A DNA stretch of 64,000 nucleotides from Microcoleus sp. bin48.metabat.b7b8b9.023 (GTDB lineage: Bacteria > Cyanobacteriota > Cyanobacteriia > Cyanobacteriales > Microcoleaceae): positions 1 through 64,000 of the forward strand of contig NZ_JAAFKG010000042.1 of NCBI RefSeq assembly GCF_013299185.1. The letters are read 5' to 3'. The translations under genes were made by a program, and so were the position numbers. The stretch's first letter is position 1; every line of letters begins with the position of its first letter. Shown piece after piece: positions 12,380 through 26,575 of the stretch. Under the pieces are notes generated by a model, which saw only the letters and a list, made by a program, of their open reading frames with translations, did not search any database and was not told where the DNA came from.

Positions 12380-15300
12380 ATGAAAAAAAGTTTAGGGGTA
12401 CAAAATTACTTCGAGCGCTCCCAAGCCTCATTGCCAACAGTTCCAGCTCTTGAGAAACTCTTGGAGGAAATCAGTCCCGAACCGACATTAATTGCCAAAT
12501 TAAATACAGCCTGTGAAATTTGCGAGTTTCAACTCGGAGATGAAATCACCCAATATCAAACCCCGGATAATACCAAGAATTTAGTTGAACAAACACAGAG
12601 CGATTCCCTACGGGATAGCTTCGCTTCACGCAATTTTTATTTAGTCTGCCAGGGAAGAGTCAGGCTGCTAGCAATAGAAGCCTCTCAACAGCAAGAAGTT
12701 TCGGTGACGGTACTGGAACTCGGAGCAGTATTTGGGACAGACGACGTATTTATTGCCAGCGGACTGCCTTACAGAGCAATTGCGGCCGGCACTTGCCAAC
12801 TCGCTTGCATAAATGCAGCCAAATTACAGCTTGTTATAGAGGAATTCCCCCAACTGCAACAGCACTTGCAGCAAGAATTCCAACAGATCCAGCAGTTAAT
12901 TTTTTTCAAGACGCAAACAGATTTGCGATCGCTAAAATCCCACCAACAACAACTTCTGTGGCCGCACTTACTTCCTTCTCTAGAAGAAACCCGAATTGCG
13001 GCCGGAGTTTCCCTCGTGGAACACTGCCAAAAAACCACCAATCATTTTTGGCTCCGCAGCGGTAAAATTCAAGGTCAAGCACCGCCAATTATTGGGAGTC
13101 ACTGGGGACATTCAGATGTACCGAACGACTGGAAAGCAGCAACAGACTTGCTAATTTACCAGATCCGCTCAAAACAGTGGGAAATGGCAAAAGCCACAAT
13201 TGGTTCCGACAGCAATGCCCGTCCCAAAATTATCCGCAAACCTCCGACTTTAACCTTAGTAAGTGCGCCAAAAGATGCTTCGTCTACCTCAAAAGCTGAG
13301 CCGTCAAAACTAACCGCAGTCGAGTCTCCCAAATCGGCATCCGGAATCATCAGTTTCCCAAAACCCAAGCGGCGCAGATGGTTGAGCAGCGGACACCCAT
13401 TCATTCAACAACAGAGTACAGCAGATTGTGGAGCTACCTGCTTGGCGATGATTAGCGAATATTGGGGTAAGAAATTCAGCCTGAATTACTTGCGCGAATT
13501 GGCAGAAATCGGCCGCAGTGGCGCGTCTCTCAAGAGTCTGGCAAAGGCAGCGGAAAGAATGGGGTTTCAAACCCGTCCCGTGCGAGCTTCTTTAACTCCG
13601 CTCCGCAATCAAAATCCCTGGATAGCTCACTGGCAAGGCAATCACTACGTTGCAGTTTACCGCTTTAAAAATCAACAGGTTTTAGTTGCCGATCCGGCGG
13701 CGGGCAAGCGGTGGATGAGTCTTAAAGATTTTACCGACAGTTGGACTGGTTACGCCCTAATTTTAGACCCGACAGCGGAACTATACCGCAATCACAGTGC
13801 CGAACATAAAGGTATCAAAGTTAAGAATTTTCTGGGCATAATCTGGCCCTACCGCGCTACGATCGCCCAAATTTTGGTAATCTCTTTGTTGATCCAACTG
13901 TTTGGGATCGTTACTCCCCTGTTTACTCAGGTAATTCTCGACCAAGTAGTTGTCAGCAAAAGCATCGTTACTCTGCACGTTTTCGCGATCGGACTGCTGA
14001 TGTTTAGTGTTTGGCGATCGCTCTTGGGGGCAACGAGACAGTATTTGCTGGATTACTTGTCCAACCGCATTGACCTGACTTTAATTAGCGGGTTTATCAG
14101 TCACACTCTCAGTTTGCCGATCAAATTCTTTGAATCTCGTCAGGTGGGCGACATCTTGACGCGGGTTCAGGAAAATCAAAAAATTCAGTCGTTTTTGACT
14201 CGCCAAGCAATTACGGCTTGGTTGGATGCTTTGATGGCTGTGGTTTACATCGGACTGATGTTTTACTATAACTGGCGTCTGGCTTTTTTGGTGCTGGCTT
14301 TGATTCCGCCGATCGTGATTTTGACTTTGGTGGCAACTCCGTTTCTGCGCCAAGTGTCGCGGGAGGTTTTTAACGAAGGTGCCAAGCAAAATTCCTCTTT
14401 GGTGGAAATGATTACTGGAGTGGCGACGATTAAGGCAACTGCTGCCGATCGCGAAATGCGCTGGCGCTGGGAAGATCAATTAACTTGCATGATTAATGCT
14501 AAATTTCGGGGCCAGAAGTTGGCGAACTCTTTGCAGGTAGTTGGGGGCGGGATTAATACTTTGGGTAGCACGGCTTTGTTGTGGTACGGGGCCATGCTGG
14601 TGATTCAAGACCAATTGACGATCGGTCAATTTGTGGCTTTTAATATGATGATTGGCAGTGTGATTTCTCCTGTGCTTTCGGTGGTGGGACTTTGGGATGA
14701 GTTTCAAGAAGTTTTGGTATCGATCGAGCGTTTGGATGATGTATTCTCGGCAGAACCTGAAGAAAGCCCTTACAAACCAATGCTGGTGCTGCCTCGCATT
14801 CACGGAACCATCAAATTTGACAATGTTTCTTTCCGCTATGCTCAGGATGAGGAACGCAATACGCTGCAAAATCTTTGCTTTGAGGTGCAAGCTGGAGAAA
14901 CTGTGGCAATTGTCGGCCGCAGCGGTTCCGGTAAGAGCACTTTGGTGAAGCTGCTGCAAGGTTTCTATTATCCAGAAAAAGGGCGGCTGACGATCGACGG
15001 CCACGATATTCGCCACATTTCTTTGCAGTCGCTGCGAGTGCAGTTGGGTGTTGTCCCTCAGGATTGTTTCTTGTTTTCGGGAACGATTTTGGAAAATATC
15101 ACGCTGTACAAAAATTTGGAAACCCCCGCCAGTCATGGCGAAGAAGGAACCTTTGGTGATTCTGCAACCTTGGAAGAGGCGATCGAAGTGGCAAAGCTAG
15201 CAGAAGCTCACGCTTTTATTCAAGATATGCCGCTTGGTTATCAAACTCCTGTGGGGGAGAGGGGCACGAGTTTGTCTGGGGGCCAGCGCCAGCGAATTGC

Positions 15301-15580
15301 GATCGCCCGTGCTCTGTTGGGCGATCCGCGAGTTTTGATTTTGGACGAAGCAACTTCTTCGCTGGATACCGAGTCTGAGCGCAGGTTCCAGCAAAATCTG
15401 GCTCGCATCAGTCGCGATCGCACTGTGTTTGTAATCGCTCACAGGTTGTCTACAGTACGCAATGCCGATCGCATTTTGGTTCTAGACAAAGGCATTTTAG
15501 CCGAACAAGGCAACCACGACCAATTGATGGCTGAACGTGGACTCTACTATCACCTTGCTCAACAACAACTCGATCTTTAA
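12380..15580 (+). CDS. C39-peptidase ABC exporter with N-terminal CNB-like domain
   Basis: The 1066-residue protein is a peptidase-containing ABC transporter. Order: a cyclic-nucleotide-binding-like domain (about 25-165, with LEKLLEEISPEPTLIAKL and FYLVCQGRVRLLAI); a linker; a C39 peptidase with the catalytic Cys in QQSTADCGATCLAMI near 349, His in GNHYVAVY near 421 and Asp in VADPAAG near 437; a transmembrane domain (about 480-770); and an NBD with GRSGSGKSTL near 848, LSGGQRQRIAIARALL, VLILDEATSSLD and the AHRLST switch. It should cut leader peptides after a double glycine and export the cargo. A dispersed repeat is inserted in frame at 12600-12632 and encodes DSLRDSFASR. The HlyD partner follows. 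The CNB domain may gate export; whether it binds a nucleotide is not known. Confidence 0.93.
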   Translation: MKKSLGVQNYFERSQASLPTVPALEKLLEEISPEPTLIAKLNTACEICEFQLGDEITQYQTPDNTKNLVEQTQSDSLRDSFASRNFYLVCQGRVRLLAIEASQQQEVSVTVLELGAVFGTDDVFIASGLPYRAIAAGTCQLACINAAKLQLVIEEFPQLQQHLQQEFQQIQQLIFFKTQTDLRSLKSHQQQLLWPHLLPSLEETRIAAGVSLVEHCQKTTNHFWLRSGKIQGQAPPIIGSHWGHSDVPNDWKAATDLLIYQIRSKQWEMAKATIGSDSNARPKIIRKPPTLTLVSAPKDASSTSKAEPSKLTAVESPKSASGIISFPKPKRRRWLSSGHPFIQQQSTADCGATCLAMISEYWGKKFSLNYLRELAEIGRSGASLKSLAKAAERMGFQTRPVRASLTPLRNQNPWIAHWQGNHYVAVYRFKNQQVLVADPAAGKRWMSLKDFTDSWTGYALILDPTAELYRNHSAEHKGIKVKNFLGIIWPYRATIAQILVISLLIQLFGIVTPLFTQVILDQVVVSKSIVTLHVFAIGLLMFSVWRSLLGATRQYLLDYLSNRIDLTLISGFISHTLSLPIKFFESRQVGDILTRVQENQKIQSFLTRQAITAWLDALMAVVYIGLMFYYNWRLAFLVLALIPPIVILTLVATPFLRQVSREVFNEGAKQNSSLVEMITGVATIKATAADREMRWRWEDQLTCMINAKFRGQKLANSLQVVGGGINTLGSTALLWYGAMLVIQDQLTIGQFVAFNMMIGSVISPVLSVVGLWDEFQEVLVSIERLDDVFSAEPEESPYKPMLVLPRIHGTIKFDNVSFRYAQDEERNTLQNLCFEVQAGETVAIVGRSGSGKSTLVKLLQGFYYPEKGRLTIDGHDIRHISLQSLRVQLGVVPQDCFLFSGTILENITLYKNLETPASHGEEGTFGDSATLEEAIEVAKLAEAHAFIQDMPLGYQTPVGERGTSLSGGQRQRIAIARALLGDPRVLILDEATSSLDTESERRFQQNLARISRDRTVFVIAHRLSTVRNADRILVLDKGILAEQGNHDQLMAERGLYYHLAQQQLDL
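12600..12632 (-). repeat. Dispersed palindromic repeat inserted in frame in exporter gene
   Basis: GCGATTCCCTACGGGATAGC followed by TTCGCTTCACG is the reverse complement form of the repeat at 4568 and 48400. It lies within the CNB-like domain coding sequence and keeps the frame open, adding about 11 residues. Confidence 0.85.
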
Positions 15581-15583
15581 AGT

Positions 15584-15650
15584 CAGTTGACAGTTGACAG
15601 TTGACAGTTGACAGTTGACAGTTGACAGTTGTCAGTTGACAGTTGACAGT
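15584..15650. repeat. Heptameric GTTGACA tandem repeat (STRR type)
   Basis: Nine or so copies of the heptamer CAGTTGA are seen in tandem. Short tandemly repeated heptamers of this kind are characteristic of filamentous cyanobacteria. Other arrays are at 20897-20928, 23830-23894, 33844-33875, 34154-34190 and 62564-62599, in either orientation. Confidence 0.9.
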
Positions 15651-15659
15651 CATTGGAAG

Positions 15660-15913
15660 CAATTACCAATTACCAATTAATTCCCAATTCCCAATTACCA
15701 ATGCCCAATTCCCAATTACCAATGCCCAATTCCCAATTCCCAATGCCCAATTCCCAATTCCCAATGCCCAATTCCCAACTCCCAATGCCCAATTCCCAAT
15801 TACCAATGCCCAATTCCCAATTCCCAATGCCCAATTCCCAATTACCAATGCCCAATTCCCAACTCCCAATGCCCAATGCCCAATGCCCAATGCCCAATTC
15901 CCAATTCCTAATT
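15660..15913. repeat. CCCAATTCCCAATGCCCAATTACC degenerate tandem array
   Basis: About 250 bp made of CCCAATTCC, CAATGCC and CAATTACC units in mixed order. All frames on both strands are open through it, so it generates spurious reading frames rich in NSQLPM or GIGNWE peptides. The HlyD ribosome-binding site (GGAG at about 15914) begins right at its end. Confidence 0.9.
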
Positions 15914-15926
15914 TGGAGTAAATATC

Positions 15927-17729
15927 ATGCTTTCAGAAGACGCCCAAAAAATATGCGCCGATCCTGATGAGATAGCTGAAGTCTATGGCGGCGTAGCTTT
16001 AAGGCAAGAAAACGAAGCCAGAAAAACAGACCGCTCTTTAGAAGTAGTTGAATCTCAAAATCGCTCTTCTAAAACTAATGACTATATCTATCCGGCGAAG
16101 TTCCGGCAGCCTGAGGCTGATAATTGGTCTACTTCTTTGCACTCGGTACTAGACCAACCGCCAGTATCTTTTCCTCAGCAGTTGATCTTAGGAGGTCTGG
16201 TATTTTCCATAGCTTTTGTAGCGTGGGCAACTTTGGGAAAAATAGATCAAGTCGGTCACGCTCAAGGCAAATTAGTTCCCAAAGGTGATGTTTACAAAAT
16301 TCATCCGACGGAGCCGGGAAAAATTATTAACCTCGCGATTAAAGAAGGTCAAAAGGTCAAAACTGGACAGTTATTGGCGGAATTAGACCCGGAAAATGCT
16401 TCGAGCGAGGTGGAGCGTCTAGATAAAATTCTGGATGCTTATCAGATTCAATTGGTGCAGCAAATTAGTTCGATCGAGAGAACTCGACTGGAAGCTCAGG
16501 CGAGCCAAGCTATTGCTGCTGCCGACAAACGGGGGGCTCAAGCTGCGATCGACAGATCTCGCGCTTCAGCAGCCACCACGCAGTCTCAAATCGAGCAATT
16601 GCAAGCAGATGTAGTCTCTCAGAAAGCGCGGCAGGAACAGATCAAACCTCTGGAAAAGCAGGCACAAAATCTGTTGTCGCAACTGAAAACAGATATCACT
16701 TCTCAAGAGGCGAGGCGCGATCGCGTGAAGCCACTGCAAAATAAAAGTCAAGATTTGCTAGCACAACTGCAAGCAAAAGTGGCAGCCCACAAAGAGCGGA
16801 TCGGGCGGCTCAAACCTTTGGTAGATGAGGGAGCCCTATCCAAAGATGTACTATTTCAAGCTGAAGATGCTCTGCGGGAAAGCCAAAATGCCGTCATTAG
16901 AAGCCAGTTGGGGGAAAAAACTCAGGCTGACGATCGAGTATTTGAGGTCGAGCAAACCGTGCGCGACAGACAAAGTGCTGCGATCAGGAGTCAACTGTCT
17001 GAGGCGACTCAGGTTAAGGAAAGGCTGTTTGAAGTCGAGCAAGGTTTGCGCGATCGCGCCAGTTCGATCGACAAAATGCAAGGCCAATTAGCCGAACAAC
17101 TCGCAGAAGTCGATCGACTGCAAGCCGAAGCCGACAGCAAACAAGCAGCAGCGCGCCAAATGCAGTTAGAAAAACAGCAAAAAATTCAGCAGTTGGAAAT
17201 GGAATTAAACCAAATCAAATCCAAAATTGCCGAAACCCAAACCCTGCTCGCTCAAGCCAAAAACAAGCTCAAACAAAGATTTCTCTACGCACCAGTCAGC
17301 GGAGTAATTTCCGCCCTCAACATTCACAACACCGGCGAAGTCGTGCAACCGGGCCAAACTATTGCAGAAATGACCCCCAATCAGGCTCCGCTAGTGCTCG
17401 AAGTCAGTTTACCGAACCGAGAAGCGGGATTTGTCAAAATCGGAATGCCGGTACAAGTCAAATTCGATGCTTTTCCCTATCAAAATTATGGCGTGATGCC
17501 GGGAAAAGTTGTATCGATTTCGCCAGATGCCAAAACCGACGAGCGATTGGGTGTTGTTTACCGGGTGGAAGTGAGTATCGATCGAGACTCAGTGAAAGCC
17601 AACAATCAAACCTGGAAACTCAAAGCGGGCCAGACAGCCACGGCGGAAATTGTCATCCGCCAGCGCAGCATAGCCGACATTTTGCTCGATCCGCTCAAGC
17701 AACTACAAAAAGGCGGCATGAGTTTGTAG
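15927..17729 (+). CDS. HlyD-family periplasmic adaptor for the C39 exporter
   Basis: The 600-residue product starts at ATG 15927 after GGAG. It has a cytoplasmic N-terminal segment, one membrane helix ([19 protein letters not shown] near 88-106), a lipoyl-like half-motif ([20 protein letters not shown]), a very long coiled coil (about 150-440), the second lipoyl half ([20 protein letters not shown]) and a beta-barrel ([20 protein letters not shown]). This is the membrane-fusion protein of type I secretion. The coiled coil contains internally duplicated segments. It is co-directional with the exporter; no TolC-like outer-membrane gene is nearby, so a TolC from elsewhere would be needed. Confidence 0.93.
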
Positions 17730-17744
17730 GAATTCCTCAAAAAC

Positions 17745-18134
17745 AGGTTTGTAGTGAGGACTTCAGTCCTTCTTTCTGCGGACTAAAGTCCTCACTACAA
17801 ACCGCAGTCCACAGTCAGTTAACTTACAGGTTTGTAGTGAGGACTTCAGTCCTTCTTTCTGCGGACTAAAGTCCTCACTACAAACCGCAGTCCACAGTCA
17901 GTTAACTTACAGGTTTGTAGTGAGGACTTCAGTCCTTCTTTCTGCGGACTAAAGTCCTCACTACAAACCGCAGTCCACAGTCAGTTAACTTACAGGTTTG
18001 TAGTGAGGACTTCAGTCCTTCTTTCTGCGGACTAAAGTCCTCACTACAAACCGCAGTCCACAGGTTTGTAGTGAGGACTTCAGTCCTTCTTTCTGCGGAC
18101 TAAAGTCCTCACTACAAACCGCAGTCCACAGTCA
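17745..18134. repeat. Five-copy tandem hairpin array, 83-bp period
   Basis: Copies of AGGTTTGTAGTGAGGACTTC start at 17745, 17828, 17911, 17994 and 18062. Each contains a long inverted repeat (TTTGTAGTGAGGACTT with AAGTCCTCACTACAAA) around TCTTTCTGCG. The first three periods are 83 bp and the last is 68 bp. The array lies between hlyD and the HetP-like gene. Confidence 0.95.
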
Positions 18135-18162: not shown

Positions 18163-18618
18163 ATGAATTCGCAATTTAACCATTCTGCCAATCATTCCCA
18201 AATTGGAATTAAACCCGAACAATTGGATGAGATAATTTCAGCGATTCTGGCAGGAAAGTATTCTTGGGCTTGTTTTTTACTTTTGCGGTGCACGGGTTAC
18301 AACCCTCTCGACTATATCCCCTACCGCACTTCTAACCGCTTGCTCAAGGAAAATACCCAAATGAGAAAATCGGAAACTCAGCCGCCGCTTAGCAAAATTG
18401 CGGATTTAGATTATGTGGAAGTCGTGAGGGAAAAACGAGCCGGAGTTCGAGGTGGTTGTGTAATTGAGGCTGTTAGCGAGTTGCACTCAGATACCGCAGG
18501 TTTTGTCGCCCAAGTCGGCGGCGAAGGTTCCAATATCTTGGCGCCGGCGGTTGATGTTCCAAATCAAGGATTTTTTGCAGGATTTAAGGCGCGCTGGTTT
18601 AATTTGGCGGGCAATTAA
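18163..18618 (+). CDS. HetP-family protein with double-glycine leader-like C-terminal part
   Basis: The 151-residue product has the HetP signature at residues 21-64: [20 protein letters not shown] then [20 protein letters not shown]. HetP and its paralogues control commitment to heterocyst formation in heterocystous cyanobacteria, but homologues occur in non-heterocystous filaments with unknown roles. Residues 80-98 ([19 protein letters not shown]) have the spacing of the leaders of the neighbouring precursors (SDLNYLE...VVGG), followed by a 53-residue tail. The C39 peptidase might cut after GG98 and release the tail; that is my inference. AGGA precedes the ATG. It lies 430 bp after hlyD. Confidence 0.8.
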
Positions 18619-19023: not shown

Positions 19024-19281
19024 ATGATCATTTCTGACCTCAACTACTTGGAAACTGCTGAAACTTCTGTTGTTGGTGGATTCAACCGAGGCTATGACTT
19101 TAGCAAGATCTATTTCTCCGAGTATTTTTCCATCAAGAAGGATGTTCTGTCGAAGACCTATGTAAAAGGTAATTTGGCTACTGCTGAAGCTGATGCTTAT
19201 GGTTCAGATACTTTGACCCAAACCTTCGCTACTGTCACTCCATACTCTTCTAATAGCGTCTCGATCGCTGCCACTAACTAA
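19024..19281 (+). CDS. Double-glycine precursor peptide 1
   Basis: The start is ATG 19024 after AAGGATAAAAGCC. The 85-residue peptide begins MIISDLNYLETAETSVVGG, a double-glycine leader for C39 peptidases, leaving a predicted 66-residue core that begins FNRGYDFSKIYFSEYFSI. The core has no cysteine, is rich in Ser, Thr, Ala and aromatic residues and has paired YFS motifs. It is one of three near-identical tandem paralogues and is served by its own palindrome-containing promoter. The likely fate is cleavage and export by the upstream ABC-HlyD pair. Activity (bacteriocin, signal or surface peptide) is unknown. Confidence 0.85.
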   Translation: MIISDLNYLETAETSVVGGFNRGYDFSKIYFSEYFSIKKDVLSKTYVKGNLATAEADAYGSDTLTQTFATVTPYSSNSVSIAATN

Positions 19282-19522: not shown

Positions 19523-19780
19523 ATGATTATTTCTGACCTCAACTACTTGGAAACTGCTGAAACTTCTGTTGTTGGTGGATTCAACCGAGGCTATGACTTT
19601 AGCAAGATCTATTTCTCTGAGTATTTTTCCATCAAGAAAGATGTTGTGTCGAAGACCTATGTCGAGGGCAATCTTGCGACTGCTGAAGCTGATGCTTACG
19701 GCAAAGATAGTTTGACCCAAACTTTCGCTACAGTCTATCCGTGGTCTTCTAATAGCGTCTCGATCGCTGCTACTAACTAA
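19523..19780 (+). CDS. Double-glycine precursor peptide 2
   Basis: The start is ATG 19523. The 85-residue peptide has the same MIISDLNYLETAETSVVGG leader as precursor 1 and a core that differs from it at a handful of positions (for example VVSKTYVEG, YGKDSL and YPWSSN in place of VLSKTYVKG, YGSDTL and TPYSSN). It lies on the second unit of a roughly 499-bp tandem duplication that includes promoter, gene and terminator hairpin. Confidence 0.85.
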   Translation: MIISDLNYLETAETSVVGGFNRGYDFSKIYFSEYFSIKKDVVSKTYVEGNLATAEADAYGKDSLTQTFATVYPWSSNSVSIAATN

Positions 19781-20024: not shown

Positions 20025-20282
20025 ATGATCATTTCTGACCTGAACTACTTGGAAACTGCTGAATCTTCTGTTGTTGGTGGATTCAACTTGGGAAAAGATT
20101 ATAGCAAGATCTATTTCTCTGAGTATTTTTCCATCAAGAAAGATGTTTTCTCGAAGACCTATGTCGAGGGCAATCTTGCGACTGCTGAAGCTGATGCTTA
20201 CGGCAAAGATAGTTTGACCCAAACTTTCGCTACAGTCTATCCGTGGTCTTCTAATAGCGTTTCGATCGCTGCTACTAACTAA
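20025..20282 (+). CDS. Double-glycine precursor peptide 3
   Basis: The start is ATG 20025. The 85-residue peptide has the leader MIISDLNYLETAESSVVGG and a core that starts FNLGKDYSKIYFSEYFSIKK. It is the third copy of the tandem unit; changes cluster right after the GG site, while the rest of the core equals precursor 2. The downstream region no longer has the AATAGAGG hairpin and instead carries a different inverted repeat. Confidence 0.85.
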   Translation: MIISDLNYLETAESSVVGGFNLGKDYSKIYFSEYFSIKKDVFSKTYVEGNLATAEADAYGKDSLTQTFATVYPWSSNSVSIAATN

Positions 20283-20498: not shown

Positions 20499-20819
20499 AT
20501 GAAAAATTCATTAATCATCTCAGACTTAAGTTATTTAGAACCGATTGACGAAAGTAGCATTGTAGTAGGTGGTCGCAAAGTTTCCGCTAGTACATACGGC
20601 ACAACAGAAGCAGGGCCTGGATATGCCATCGCTGTTGTAGGTGCATTTGCCACTGGTGATGATACTTATACAAATACTGGAGCCAACACAACGGTTCAAG
20701 ACTTTGGTAGTCTTCAGTTTAGTAGAGCCAAGGCAACAGGCACAGCCTATGGAACAAATGGAGACCAAACTGCTTCATCTACATTTCGCAGCACTTCTAT
20801 TTCGTTTTTTGGGCGTTAA
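20499..20819 (+). CDS. Double-glycine precursor peptide 4
   Basis: The start is ATG 20499 (MKNSLIISDLSYLEPIDE), 106 residues. The leader ends SSIVVGG at residue 25, with the same SDLSYLE motif as precursors 1-3. The predicted 81-residue core (RKVSASTYGTTEAGPGYAIA and on) is rich in Gly, Ala, Ser and Thr, lacks Cys and ends STSISFFGR. It is unrelated to the cores of precursors 1-3, so one exporter seems to handle several cargo types. A stray upstream start at 20472 is unlikely. Confidence 0.8.
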   Translation: MKNSLIISDLSYLEPIDESSIVVGGRKVSASTYGTTEAGPGYAIAVVGAFATGDDTYTNTGANTTVQDFGSLQFSRAKATGTAYGTNGDQTASSTFRSTSISFFGR

Positions 20820-22909: not shown

Positions 22910-23233
22910 ATGTGGCTATCTGATTTGTCCTATCTCGAAAATGTTTCAGAAAATGACTTAATTTTAGGTGGTGCTTTATTGGCGTTGGATGCTTTTGCAT
23001 CAGTGGATAGTGGAAACACTTTGACGGCTACAGACGTTATTTTTGGCAACCACGGTAAAGTTACGAAAGCAAGGGGTACAGGAACAGCTATAGCGAGCGG
23101 TACTAATCCTCTAGCTGGTGTTGATGTTTACTACGCAGGCTTTGATAAAGTGAAAGTAAAATTTCATTCTGGAACAGGAGCAAACTATGCTTTTGAGACT
23201 GTTAGTGTAAAGGCGATGGACTTGCCACACTAA
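22910..23233 (+). CDS. Double-glycine precursor peptide 5
   Basis: I choose ATG 22910 with AAGGAG at 22899-22904, over an upstream TTG. The 107-residue peptide has the leader LSDLSYLENVSENDLILGG ending at residue 21 and an 86-residue core (ALLALDAFASVDSGNTLTAT and on), Gly/Ala/Thr-rich, without Cys. It follows the acyltransferase-TPR gene by 27 bp and is probably translated from the same mRNA, linking the enzyme with this precursor. Confidence 0.8.
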   Translation: MWLSDLSYLENVSENDLILGGALLALDAFASVDSGNTLTATDVIFGNHGKVTKARGTGTAIASGTNPLAGVDVYYAGFDKVKVKFHSGTGANYAFETVSVKAMDLPH

Positions 23234-24078: not shown

Positions 24079-25755
24079 ATGCCTTCCTTAGATTCATCTG
24101 ATCCATTAAAAAATATTGTTGGAAACAACAATAGTTTAAACACCTTGAATTCGCAGGTGGCGAATAACTCTGGTACCGGCAGCACCAGCGCTTCCAGCAA
24201 GTCTAGTTCCTTTGTAAATAACAGCGGTGCGGGCAGTACCAGCACTGCGACAGCCACTTCCCCGATGGGAAACAGTACAAGTAGCGAGACTGCTTATGCT
24301 CCCGGGGCTACATCAAGCAGTGGTAGCGCGACAGCGAGTGCTTCTACTGTCGCGCCCCCAACTACTAGCGCCACTGCTTCGGCCCCAGCAGCAACACCTG
24401 CGCCTGCGCCAACACCAACACCAACACCTGCGCCAACGCCTGCGCCTGCGCCAACACCTGCGCCAACACCTGCGCCTGCGCCCGCACCAACACCTGCGCC
24501 AACACCAACACCAACACCTGCGCCGTTAGGAGACGGCAGCGGTGCGAGCAGCACCAGCAGCGCGACAGCGACTTCTCCGACTGGGAGCAGCACCAGCACT
24601 CAGACAGCATGGAGTCCCGGTGGCACTTCTAGTAGTGCGATCGCCTCAGCTAGCAGTGGTTTAGAAACTCCGCCGGCTGCGATCGCCACTGCTTCGGCTC
24701 CAGCGCCAACACCAGCGCCAACTCTAGCGCCGACTCCAGCGCCGACTCCAGCGCCGACTCCAGCGCCAACTCCAGCGCCAACTCCAGCGCCAACTCCAGC
24801 GGCGGCTGCTACAGACTCTGCACCGGCAATTAATATCACAGCGCCAACACCAACACCAACACCAGCGCCAATACCAACACCAATACGGCTAACACCTGCG
24901 AAAGCTCCAACACTAGCACCAGCGCCAACTCCAACACCGTCAAATAATAATGATGGTGCGCCGCTTGATTCGGTGACTGACGGAACTTCTAGCAATTCAA
25001 GTCCTTCTAATTTGCCTCCAGACAGTACGGGTGCTGGCGGTGACAGTACGATAATTGCTGAGCCAACAGATAACAGTACCAGCAATTTGTCGATCGCACT
25101 TCCCGATAACAGTACCAACAACAGCAATGCTGATACAACTCCAGCCCCAGAAAACAATCCTGAGGTAGTAGCGGAATTAACTGTTACCTACGACAGCAAC
25201 GGTGACGGATATTGGCAGGGAACCAGCGACATTGATGTGATTACTTGTGGTAGCGGGTTCGATCGAATTATCGCAGGAGGTGGCGACGATTTTGTCAAAG
25301 GTAACAGAGGTAGCGATACGATCGAAGGAGGCGATGGAAACGACACTTTGCGGGGAGGAAGAGGTCAAGATTTGCTGATTGGCGGCAACGGCGACGATTT
25401 TCTGTGTGGCGACTTCGGCATCGATACATTGATTGGAGGTACCGGCGCTGATACCTTTGCATTTAGACCTGAAACAGCGAGTTCAGTGGCTAATCTATTT
25501 TTAGCCGATATACTGCTTGATTTCAATGCCGCTGAAGGTGATAAAATCGGGCTCACAGGCGGACTTTCTGCCACAGATATTGCACTGGTGGCGTTTGATA
25601 CTGACGGTAACGGTACCGCAGACGCAACTCTGGTCAAGTTTAGTTCCAATAATGGCGATCGAATTTTAGCCGTTGTTTTGGGAACAATAAACCCAGCAGG
25701 TGCAACAACTTTAACCAATGCTGATTTCATCAGTTTGCCAAATCAAACCTTGTAG
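24079..25755 (+). CDS. RTX calcium-binding secreted protein with PT/PA-rich linker
   Basis: The 558-residue protein has a Ser/Asn/Gly-rich N-terminal part, two long Ala-Pro-Thr linkers (about 98-155 and 210-275), another Asn/Ser stretch, and a C-terminal RTX block from about 375 to 465 with nonapeptides such as [29 protein letters not shown] and [13 protein letters not shown] repeats bind calcium after secretion through a type I system, whose signal is C-terminal and uncleaved. The HlyD and ABC genes upstream could export it, but the C39-type exporter normally handles double-glycine leaders, so a separate pump is possible. The repeated linker codons may cause length changes. Confidence 0.85.
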
Positions 25756-25834: not shown

Positions 25835-26575
25835 ATGAAAGACTTTTACCAGCCATTGATTGAATCAAGTGAAATTATCAAACTACTCAGAAAAGAACGG
25901 CAATTAAAGCAATTTTGTCAACAAGTTTTGCAGAAAAAAGTTATTGACAAAGCAGCCGAGGAACGGGGGTTAACTGTGACTCCCGAAGAAATCCAAGTTG
26001 CGGGCGACAAGCTGCGGCGCGAGAAGCGTCTGGAGAAAGCCTCCGATACGATTGCTTGGCTGGCGGAGCAGATGATTTCGGTAGAAGACTTAGAGGCCGG
26101 AATTTGCGATCGAATTCTCTGGCAAAAATTAGCAGAACACTTATTTGCCAAAGACGTAGAAAAGATTTTCGTGCAAAGCAAATTGCAATTCGATCAAATA
26201 ATTCTTTATCAAATAATTGTTGCCAACATACAACTTGCCCAAGAAATATTTTATGAAATTCAAGAAGGAGAAATCAGCTTTTTTGATGCTGCCCATCTTT
26301 ACGACATTGACGAAACTCGCCGGCATTTATGTGGTTGCGAAGGCCAGGTTTATCGGTGGGCTTTAAAACCAGACATAGCCGTCGCCGTATTCAGCGCTAA
26401 ACCCGGAGAAGTGATCCGTCCAATTGAAACAGAGCGAGGATATCACTTGTTCATGGTTGAAAAGTTTATCCCAGCGGAATTAACCCCTGAACGCTATCAA
26501 GAAATATTACACAATCTGTTTAACGAATGGCTGGCTAATGAGGTTAACTATTTATTGTACAATTGTAAAGTGTAG
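25835..26575 (+). CDS. PpiC/SurA-type peptidylprolyl isomerase
   Basis: The 246-residue product has a helical N-terminal part (LRKERQLKQFCQQVLQKKVI, TVTPEEIQVAGDKLRREKRL) like SurA/PrsA chaperone domains and a parvulin-like C-terminal part with CGCEGQVYRWALKPDIAVAV followed by FSAKPGEVIRPIETERGYHL, the typical end of PpiC domains. No signal peptide is seen, so it would act in the cytosol on an export substrate before or during secretion. Such foldases are often found next to cyanobacterial C39/HlyD loci. It follows the RTX gene by 79 bp and likely belongs to the same unit. Confidence 0.8.
   Translation: MKDFYQPLIESSEIIKLLRKERQLKQFCQQVLQKKVIDKAAEERGLTVTPEEIQVAGDKLRREKRLEKASDTIAWLAEQMISVEDLEAGICDRILWQKLAEHLFAKDVEKIFVQSKLQFDQIILYQIIVANIQLAQEIFYEIQEGEISFFDAAHLYDIDETRRHLCGCEGQVYRWALKPDIAVAVFSAKPGEVIRPIETERGYHLFMVEKFIPAELTPERYQEILHNLFNEWLANEVNYLLYNCKV

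Follow-up and report, generated by a model that had tools for sequence, protein, structure and literature searches.

HetP-family proteins as putative double-glycine precursors of C39 peptidase exporters, with HetP as a candidate substrate of HetC

HetP-family proteins are chiefly known for their part in cyanobacterial cell differentiation. Wang, Fewer and Sivonen (2011; PMC3140520) found 290 putative precursors, 13 of them HetP proteins, described the motif KIxDLxYLEx10GG for HetP-like proteins encoded next to bacteriocin clusters, named these proteins putative precursors and tentatively proposed an M16 peptidase as the enzyme that cuts them; the HetP-type motif and the precursor idea were used again in 2015 (PMC4558948). 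The first-pass annotation of the DNA studied here had treated HetP processing as undescribed, a claim of novelty that these two papers overturn for both the motif and the precursor idea. The motif is thus known, and what is new is the comparative evidence on motif, tail and exporter; our search of the open-access literature, in the partial texts available, found no report of a co-loss of the HetP tail and HetC or of HetP cutting. C39 domains cut leaders ending in GG, and the peptidase residues of the exporter HetC are essential for heterocysts (PMC10986499). The same 2024 study gives the HetC substrate as unknown and, in the text available, states that no double-glycine-leader gene was found near hetC (PMC10986499). 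In Anabaena, HetP carrying a C-terminal GFP yielded polar cytoplasmic GFP that was the same whether or not HetC had its peptidase domain, and HetP over-expression compensated for a missing functional hetC or a peptidase-less HetC (PMC4133259).

We analysed a Microcoleus DNA stretch of 64,000 nucleotides, hereafter the window, in which the forward-strand ORF at 18163–18618 encodes a 151-aa protein. Its assignment to the HetP family at first pass was confirmed by the NCBIfam model HetP_family (NF037966), which matches residues 4–64 (18172–18354) with 102.5 bits against a curated cut-off of 45; the named close relatives belong to Microcoleus, Tychonema and further Oscillatoriales. A Pfam scan of the protein returned no family at E values up to 1, a PDB sequence search no relative at E values up to 0.1 and a fold comparison of its model no significant match, while the single PHROGs family that was matched (E 0.28) was set aside. 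AlphaFold2, supplied with 59 aligned sequences, predicted three high-confidence helices within residues 18–70 (18–29, 33–43 and 54–70) and low confidence past residue ~70; the model of the whole protein (m1ea98c99ae35) has a mean pLDDT of 65.8 and a pTM of 0.42, and its residues 81–100 average a pLDDT of 59–61 and contain no helix. We propose that the HetP domain is the folded part of a leader. Further along the chain, ADLDYVE starts at residue 80 and a GG ends at residue 98, both within the sequence KIADLDYVE-x10-GG (residues 78–98; 18394–18456), which differs from the published motif by a single change, V for L. A cut after G98 would detach a 53-residue tail (18457–18615) of low predicted confidence, the proposed exported cargo. 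In the predicted structure, GG98 sits outside the confidently folded residues 18–70 and not inside a folded HetP domain. Several copies of a repeated unit, aggtttgtagtgaggacttcagtcc..., occupy positions 17800–18130, directly upstream of the HetP gene.

Two genes for export components lie upstream on the same strand, as had been noted at first pass: a long-type C39 peptidase ABC exporter (12380–15580), recognised by domain matches and carrying Walker A and LSGGQ, and an HlyD-type membrane fusion protein (15927–17729), also recognised by domain matches. The exporter has what we take to be a catalytic triad at Cys350, His422 and Asp438, and its N-terminus gives a cyclic-nucleotide-binding match of 27.0 bits, just below Pfam's 27.5. 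The interval between the two genes contains, at 15643–15921, a short tandem repeat reading NAQFPI/T. Downstream, again on the forward strand, five precursor peptides are encoded, of which the first (19024–19281) and second (19523–19780) have the leader MIISDLNYLETAETSVVGG, the third (20025–20282) a near-identical one (TAESSVVGG), the fourth (20499–20819) DLSYLEPIDESSIVVGG and the fifth (22910–23233) DLSYLENVSENDLILGG. An RTX-repeat protein with a long Pro/Ala/Thr-rich stretch is found within the cluster at 24079–25755, followed by a forward-strand rotamase (PpiC/SurA-like by domain matches; 25835–26575); SurA is a member of bacteriocin cluster groups I, II and VI (PMC3140520).

Scanned in all six frames (ORFs of at least 40 aa) for a strict motif, D[LIVM]x[YFH][LVIM][ED]x6-12GG, the window returned six matches, namely the HetP-family protein and the five precursors, which bears out the proposal of a common leader-like motif. 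The accompanying statement that they share spacing holds roughly: the key residues agree, but the E-to-GG distance is 10 residues in the HetP-family protein versus 7, 7, 7, 9 and 9 in precursors 1–5. Upon shuffling of residues 65–151, the strict motif arose in 24 of 200,000 sequences and a looser counting pattern in 14,310 of the 200,000 (~7%). The GG of the HetP-family protein is preceded by a hydrophobic residue at −4 (V95), in a leader common to the cluster precursors, whereas Lys91 (−8) and Arg92 (−7) mismatch the classic leader consensus of Glu at −8 and Ile/Leu at −7 (quoted in PMC3140520).

Across the class, NF037966 matches occurred in 96 of the 388 sampled genomes. We scored 148 proteins at NF037966 loci with flanks, 147 of them distinct, one protein of genome G057 having entered twice; 16 rows were dropped, i.e. 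15 organism-named loci that possibly duplicate sampled genomes and one duplicate. With a relaxed motif, chosen after the sequences had been inspected, 57 of the 147 distinct HetPs combine the motif with a same-strand syntenic C39 exporter and 67 have neither, the discordant rows being 8 with the motif only and 6 with C39 only, with 9 further rows at contig ends. Over all 148 rows, with the G057 protein counted twice, the relaxed motif gives 57 both, 8 motif only, 6 C39 only, 68 neither and 9 not assessable (Fisher 5e-23), and the strict motif, on the same double count, 39, 6, 24, 70 and 9 in the same order (Fisher 6e-12). Outside Nostocaceae, 52 HetPs have both, 5 the motif only, 5 C39 only and 12 neither (13 when the G057 protein is counted twice), 8 being not assessable. 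Among 29,600 shuffled C-termini of the scored proteins, the relaxed pattern appeared in 429. The co-occurrence of motif and C39 exporter, proposed as a check at first pass, is borne out, and the motif is conserved in close homologues.

The discordant rows are of several kinds. Five of the eight motif-only rows can be accounted for by a nearby exporter, by ORFs that are short or split, or by a relic: C39 is on the opposite strand in L063 and L065, L121 has a short C39 ORF and a split HlyD, L148 a short C39 ORF downstream, and L163 a HetC relic at the locus. In L083 the contig ends 1.3 kb downstream, and L172 and L184 are HetC-less Nostocaceae loci with GS in place of GG. As for the C39-only rows, an LGG variant is found in L117 and L118, and a contig end interrupts L133; in L074, L137 and L156, C39 and HlyD are present and HetP is tail-less, which counts against reading HetP as a substrate, as do three dropped named relatives (L012, L013 and L015) that have the motif and no C39 within the stretch examined. 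In the class-wide sample, each of the 65 genomes whose HetP bears the motif encodes a C39 peptidase somewhere, so that none carries the motif in a C39-free background; since 300 of the 388 sampled genomes encode one anyway, the locus-level link alone is informative. Outside Nostocaceae, every one of the 57 C39-syntenic rows, including five in which the motif is lacking, has HlyD at most 4 kb upstream of HetP.

Outside Nostocaceae we compared 58 motifs, selected with a pattern in which D and the first G are given: D is followed by L in 57, Y (or H in 11) stands at its place in 44, E is present in 47, V/I/L at −4 in 50 and GG in 56, and the E–GG gap is 10 in 41. A total of 57 further small ORFs share this leader; they are found at 30 of 50 motif-and-C39 loci outside Nostocaceae, the window included, as compared with 0 of 50 for reversed proteins, 3 of 68 loci with neither feature and 1 of 5 HetC loci. 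Outside Nostocaceae, tail length has a median of 17 residues (range 6–53; 62 tails), and 45 of the tails contain Trp versus 15.5 expected; Trp accounts for 76 of 1268 residues in these tails, 0 of 2044 in the linkers and, in the C-termini of motif-less HetPs, 20 of 3092. Pooled dN/dS among ten Microcoleus/Tychonema relatives, a rough estimate affected by some tail misalignment, was 0.10 for the domain, 0.46 for the linker, 0.22 for the motif and 0.82 for the tail, which is, in rough outline, the pattern of a conserved leader with a fast-changing cargo.

From these comparisons and those in Nostocaceae below, we consider it probable that HetP belongs to the double-glycine precursors, has a folded leader and is cut by the neighbouring C39 exporter; in heterocyst formers, HetC would be that exporter and HetP its likely substrate. 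The leader would consist of the folded HetP domain, a linker and the DLxYxE...GG signal, which the upstream exporter would bind through its C39 domain in the unstructured segment and cut after G98; exporter and HlyD would then carry the 53-residue tail out, with the HetP domain remaining in the cell. C39 cleavage and tail export had been suggested at first pass; we likewise infer both from comparison, which supports them well; the fate proposed for the two pieces, and any signalling by the tail, is putative.

In Nostocaceae, HetP was matched in 142 of 145 genomes. HetC was called from matches of at least 773 bits within the best five candidates per genome, among the matches listed, the lowest of which scored ~700 bits; a 34-candidate search agreed with these calls in 23 Nostocaceae genomes. 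The tail was scored as kept, by proxy, when the alignment reached query residue 126 without a stop. By these measures, the HetP tail is retained in 66 of the 70 genomes with HetC directly upstream; where no HetC was among the matches listed (66 genomes), it is kept in 12 and shortened or stop-interrupted in 54, and the six genomes with HetC elsewhere divide into three that keep and three that lost it. Counted by genus code, with ties scored as loss, the 45 uniform genera comprise 22 that keep the tail and none that lose it with HetC, and 5 versus 18 without HetC. We also read 88 Nostocaceae HetP sequences, a non-random set for which exceptions were fetched deliberately. A complete element (KIKD-type signal, GG and a tail of at least 10 residues) is present in 32 of 38 of the HetPs read with HetC and in 4 of 48 without it, and tails in the presence of HetC measure 27–43 residues. 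In most HetC-less lineages, GG or tail has decayed in the encoded HetP or is missing from it. Among the Nostocaceae sequences that we read, the neighbour of HetC carries a double-glycine signal, which decays where HetC is gone.

Exceptions occur on both sides. The HetC-less genomes with a complete element are G116, G375, G399 and G509, of which G116 and G375 contain HetC relics and G375 and G509 an altered DLxY; G191, also HetC-less, retains GG and tail and has lost KIKDL. Conversely, HetC-bearing G408, G418, G438, G452, G467 and G496 lack the complete element, the HetC match of G418 containing an internal stop. For G472 (Nodularia), a table in PMC3610870 bears out the absence of HetC that we scored, and hetC is reported absent from C. 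raciborskii CS-505 (PMC2821919). HetC relics adjoin HetP in 3 of 18 HetC-less loci, with the HetP tail coding still standing in L163 and L182 and stop-interrupted in L057. The relic of L163 (9844–10746; Cylindrospermum FACHB-282) keeps both gene ends and has lost the peptidase part, beside an intact HetP. DLxYLE is retained in 38 of the 48 HetC-less HetPs, and this survival of HetC loss means that the DLxYLE half may have another role. A second HetC-like exporter, ~50–53% identical to HetC, is found near a HetP-like gene in several Nostocaceae (at L074, 3902–10218, and other loci), e.g. in G381, G397, G410, G443 and G504; in G381, HlyD stands between the two genes and the HetP-like protein is devoid of the motif.

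Common ancestry and gene linkage, without any functional tie, could in principle generate such an association, and the phylogenetic tests leave some room for this. Class-wide, the HetP-domain tree, too weak for a test, provides few independent pairs (mean 2.8 same, 0 opposite, 2.2 no difference; p 0.25, not significant), and 11 independent pairs on the rest-of-HetP tree of Nostocaceae (mean 6.3 same, range 4–7, 0 opposite, 4.7 no difference) return a median p of 0.03 (range 0.016–0.125), so that tree-corrected support for tail/HetC co-loss is modest. Nonetheless, neither tree contains a single opposite pair, and HetC lies 5′ of HetP whereas HetP has lost its 3′ end, a combination that no single deletion could produce; we thus regard linkage without function as very unlikely. 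The M16 peptidase put forward as the cutter in PMC3140520 appears highly improbable to us, given that none of the nine window proteins scanned contains an M16 domain, that the association found is with C39, and that GG and tail decay upon HetC loss.

The lengths of the decayed proteins bear on what the cut would be for. Nineteen of 42 scored HetC-less HetPs end 7 residues past the GG site, and others end near it. A C-terminus of approximately REKKSA at this distance from the former GG is common to many HetC-less Nostocaceae HetPs (L055, L056, L059-L062, L071, L172, L180, L181, L184, L188, L235, L247 and L250-L253), a conservation that suggests some use or common descent. HetC and its relatives might cut HetP to release or activate its domain, the tail being inhibitory or anchoring and its export incidental, a scheme that we rate as a serious possibility, short of a probable one. 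The 19 short proteins look as if permanently pre-cut and over-expressed HetP bypasses a peptidase-less HetC (PMC4133259), two observations that favour release of the HetP domain. However, these 19 span ten genera, with eight from one genus, and probably reflect few events; the constant presence of HlyD in C39-syntenic rows and the variable W-rich tails outside Nostocaceae are as expected of an exported product; and the relics show HetC lost while the HetP tail still stands or is stop-interrupted. Because release of an active domain and processing of a precursor both include the cut, their probabilities overlap.

The C-terminal part of HetP could also dock to the exporter or regulate it and stay uncut. 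The co-loss of tail and HetC would then appear identical, and HetP-GFP does stay cytoplasmic at the poles (PMC4133259); its indifference to the HetC peptidase domain argues against complete cleavage. We nevertheless find an uncut partner unlikely, as the GG-ended leader, common to the small precursors of the same loci, is a known C39 cut target (PMC10986499). If HetP is a precursor of its exporter, as we favour, HetC in heterocyst-forming Nostocaceae would probably cut it after GG and export a tail of about 27–43 residues, leaving behind in the cell the N-terminal part of the regulator; HlyD would take part outside Nostocaceae, and not at the five hetC-hetP loci examined. Comparison strongly supports the proposed cleavage and, more broadly, HetP is the best candidate substrate of HetC. 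To our minds evenly balanced is a wider reading, in which HetP is the long-sought HetC substrate, its family first served as the folded leader of a Trp-rich peptide destined for export and was later taken over for developmental regulation, and heterocyst formers shed exporter and cargo repeatedly while keeping a HetP in permanently cut form. The result suggests a route by which a peptide-export system may have given rise to a multicellular regulator.

Three described systems invite comparison. NHLP and Nif11 leader peptides (PMC3140520) similarly join a domain-like leader, GG, variable cargo and a C39 exporter, but the window HetP-family protein matches neither leader model in NCBIfam at E values up to 1, where three other families were listed. 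The HetC-HetP pair (PMC10986499, PMC4133259) resembles the window in its long C39 exporter with an N-terminal nucleotide-binding domain, encoded upstream of HetP, and in the Nostocaceae sequences read HetP has the same motif. It differs in being needed for heterocysts and in its lack of a nearby HlyD: of the six C39-syntenic Nostocaceae rows, five have none close to HetP, and the exception, L074, is a second, HetC-like locus. The HetP-type precursors of the 2011 and 2015 papers differ in the tentative attribution of the cut to M16, and the text available from these papers contains neither HetC co-loss, W-rich tails nor HetC-less decay; in composition they are alike, with a HetP-like protein bearing KIxDLxYLEx10GG, an adjoining long-type C39 exporter, HlyD and SurA.
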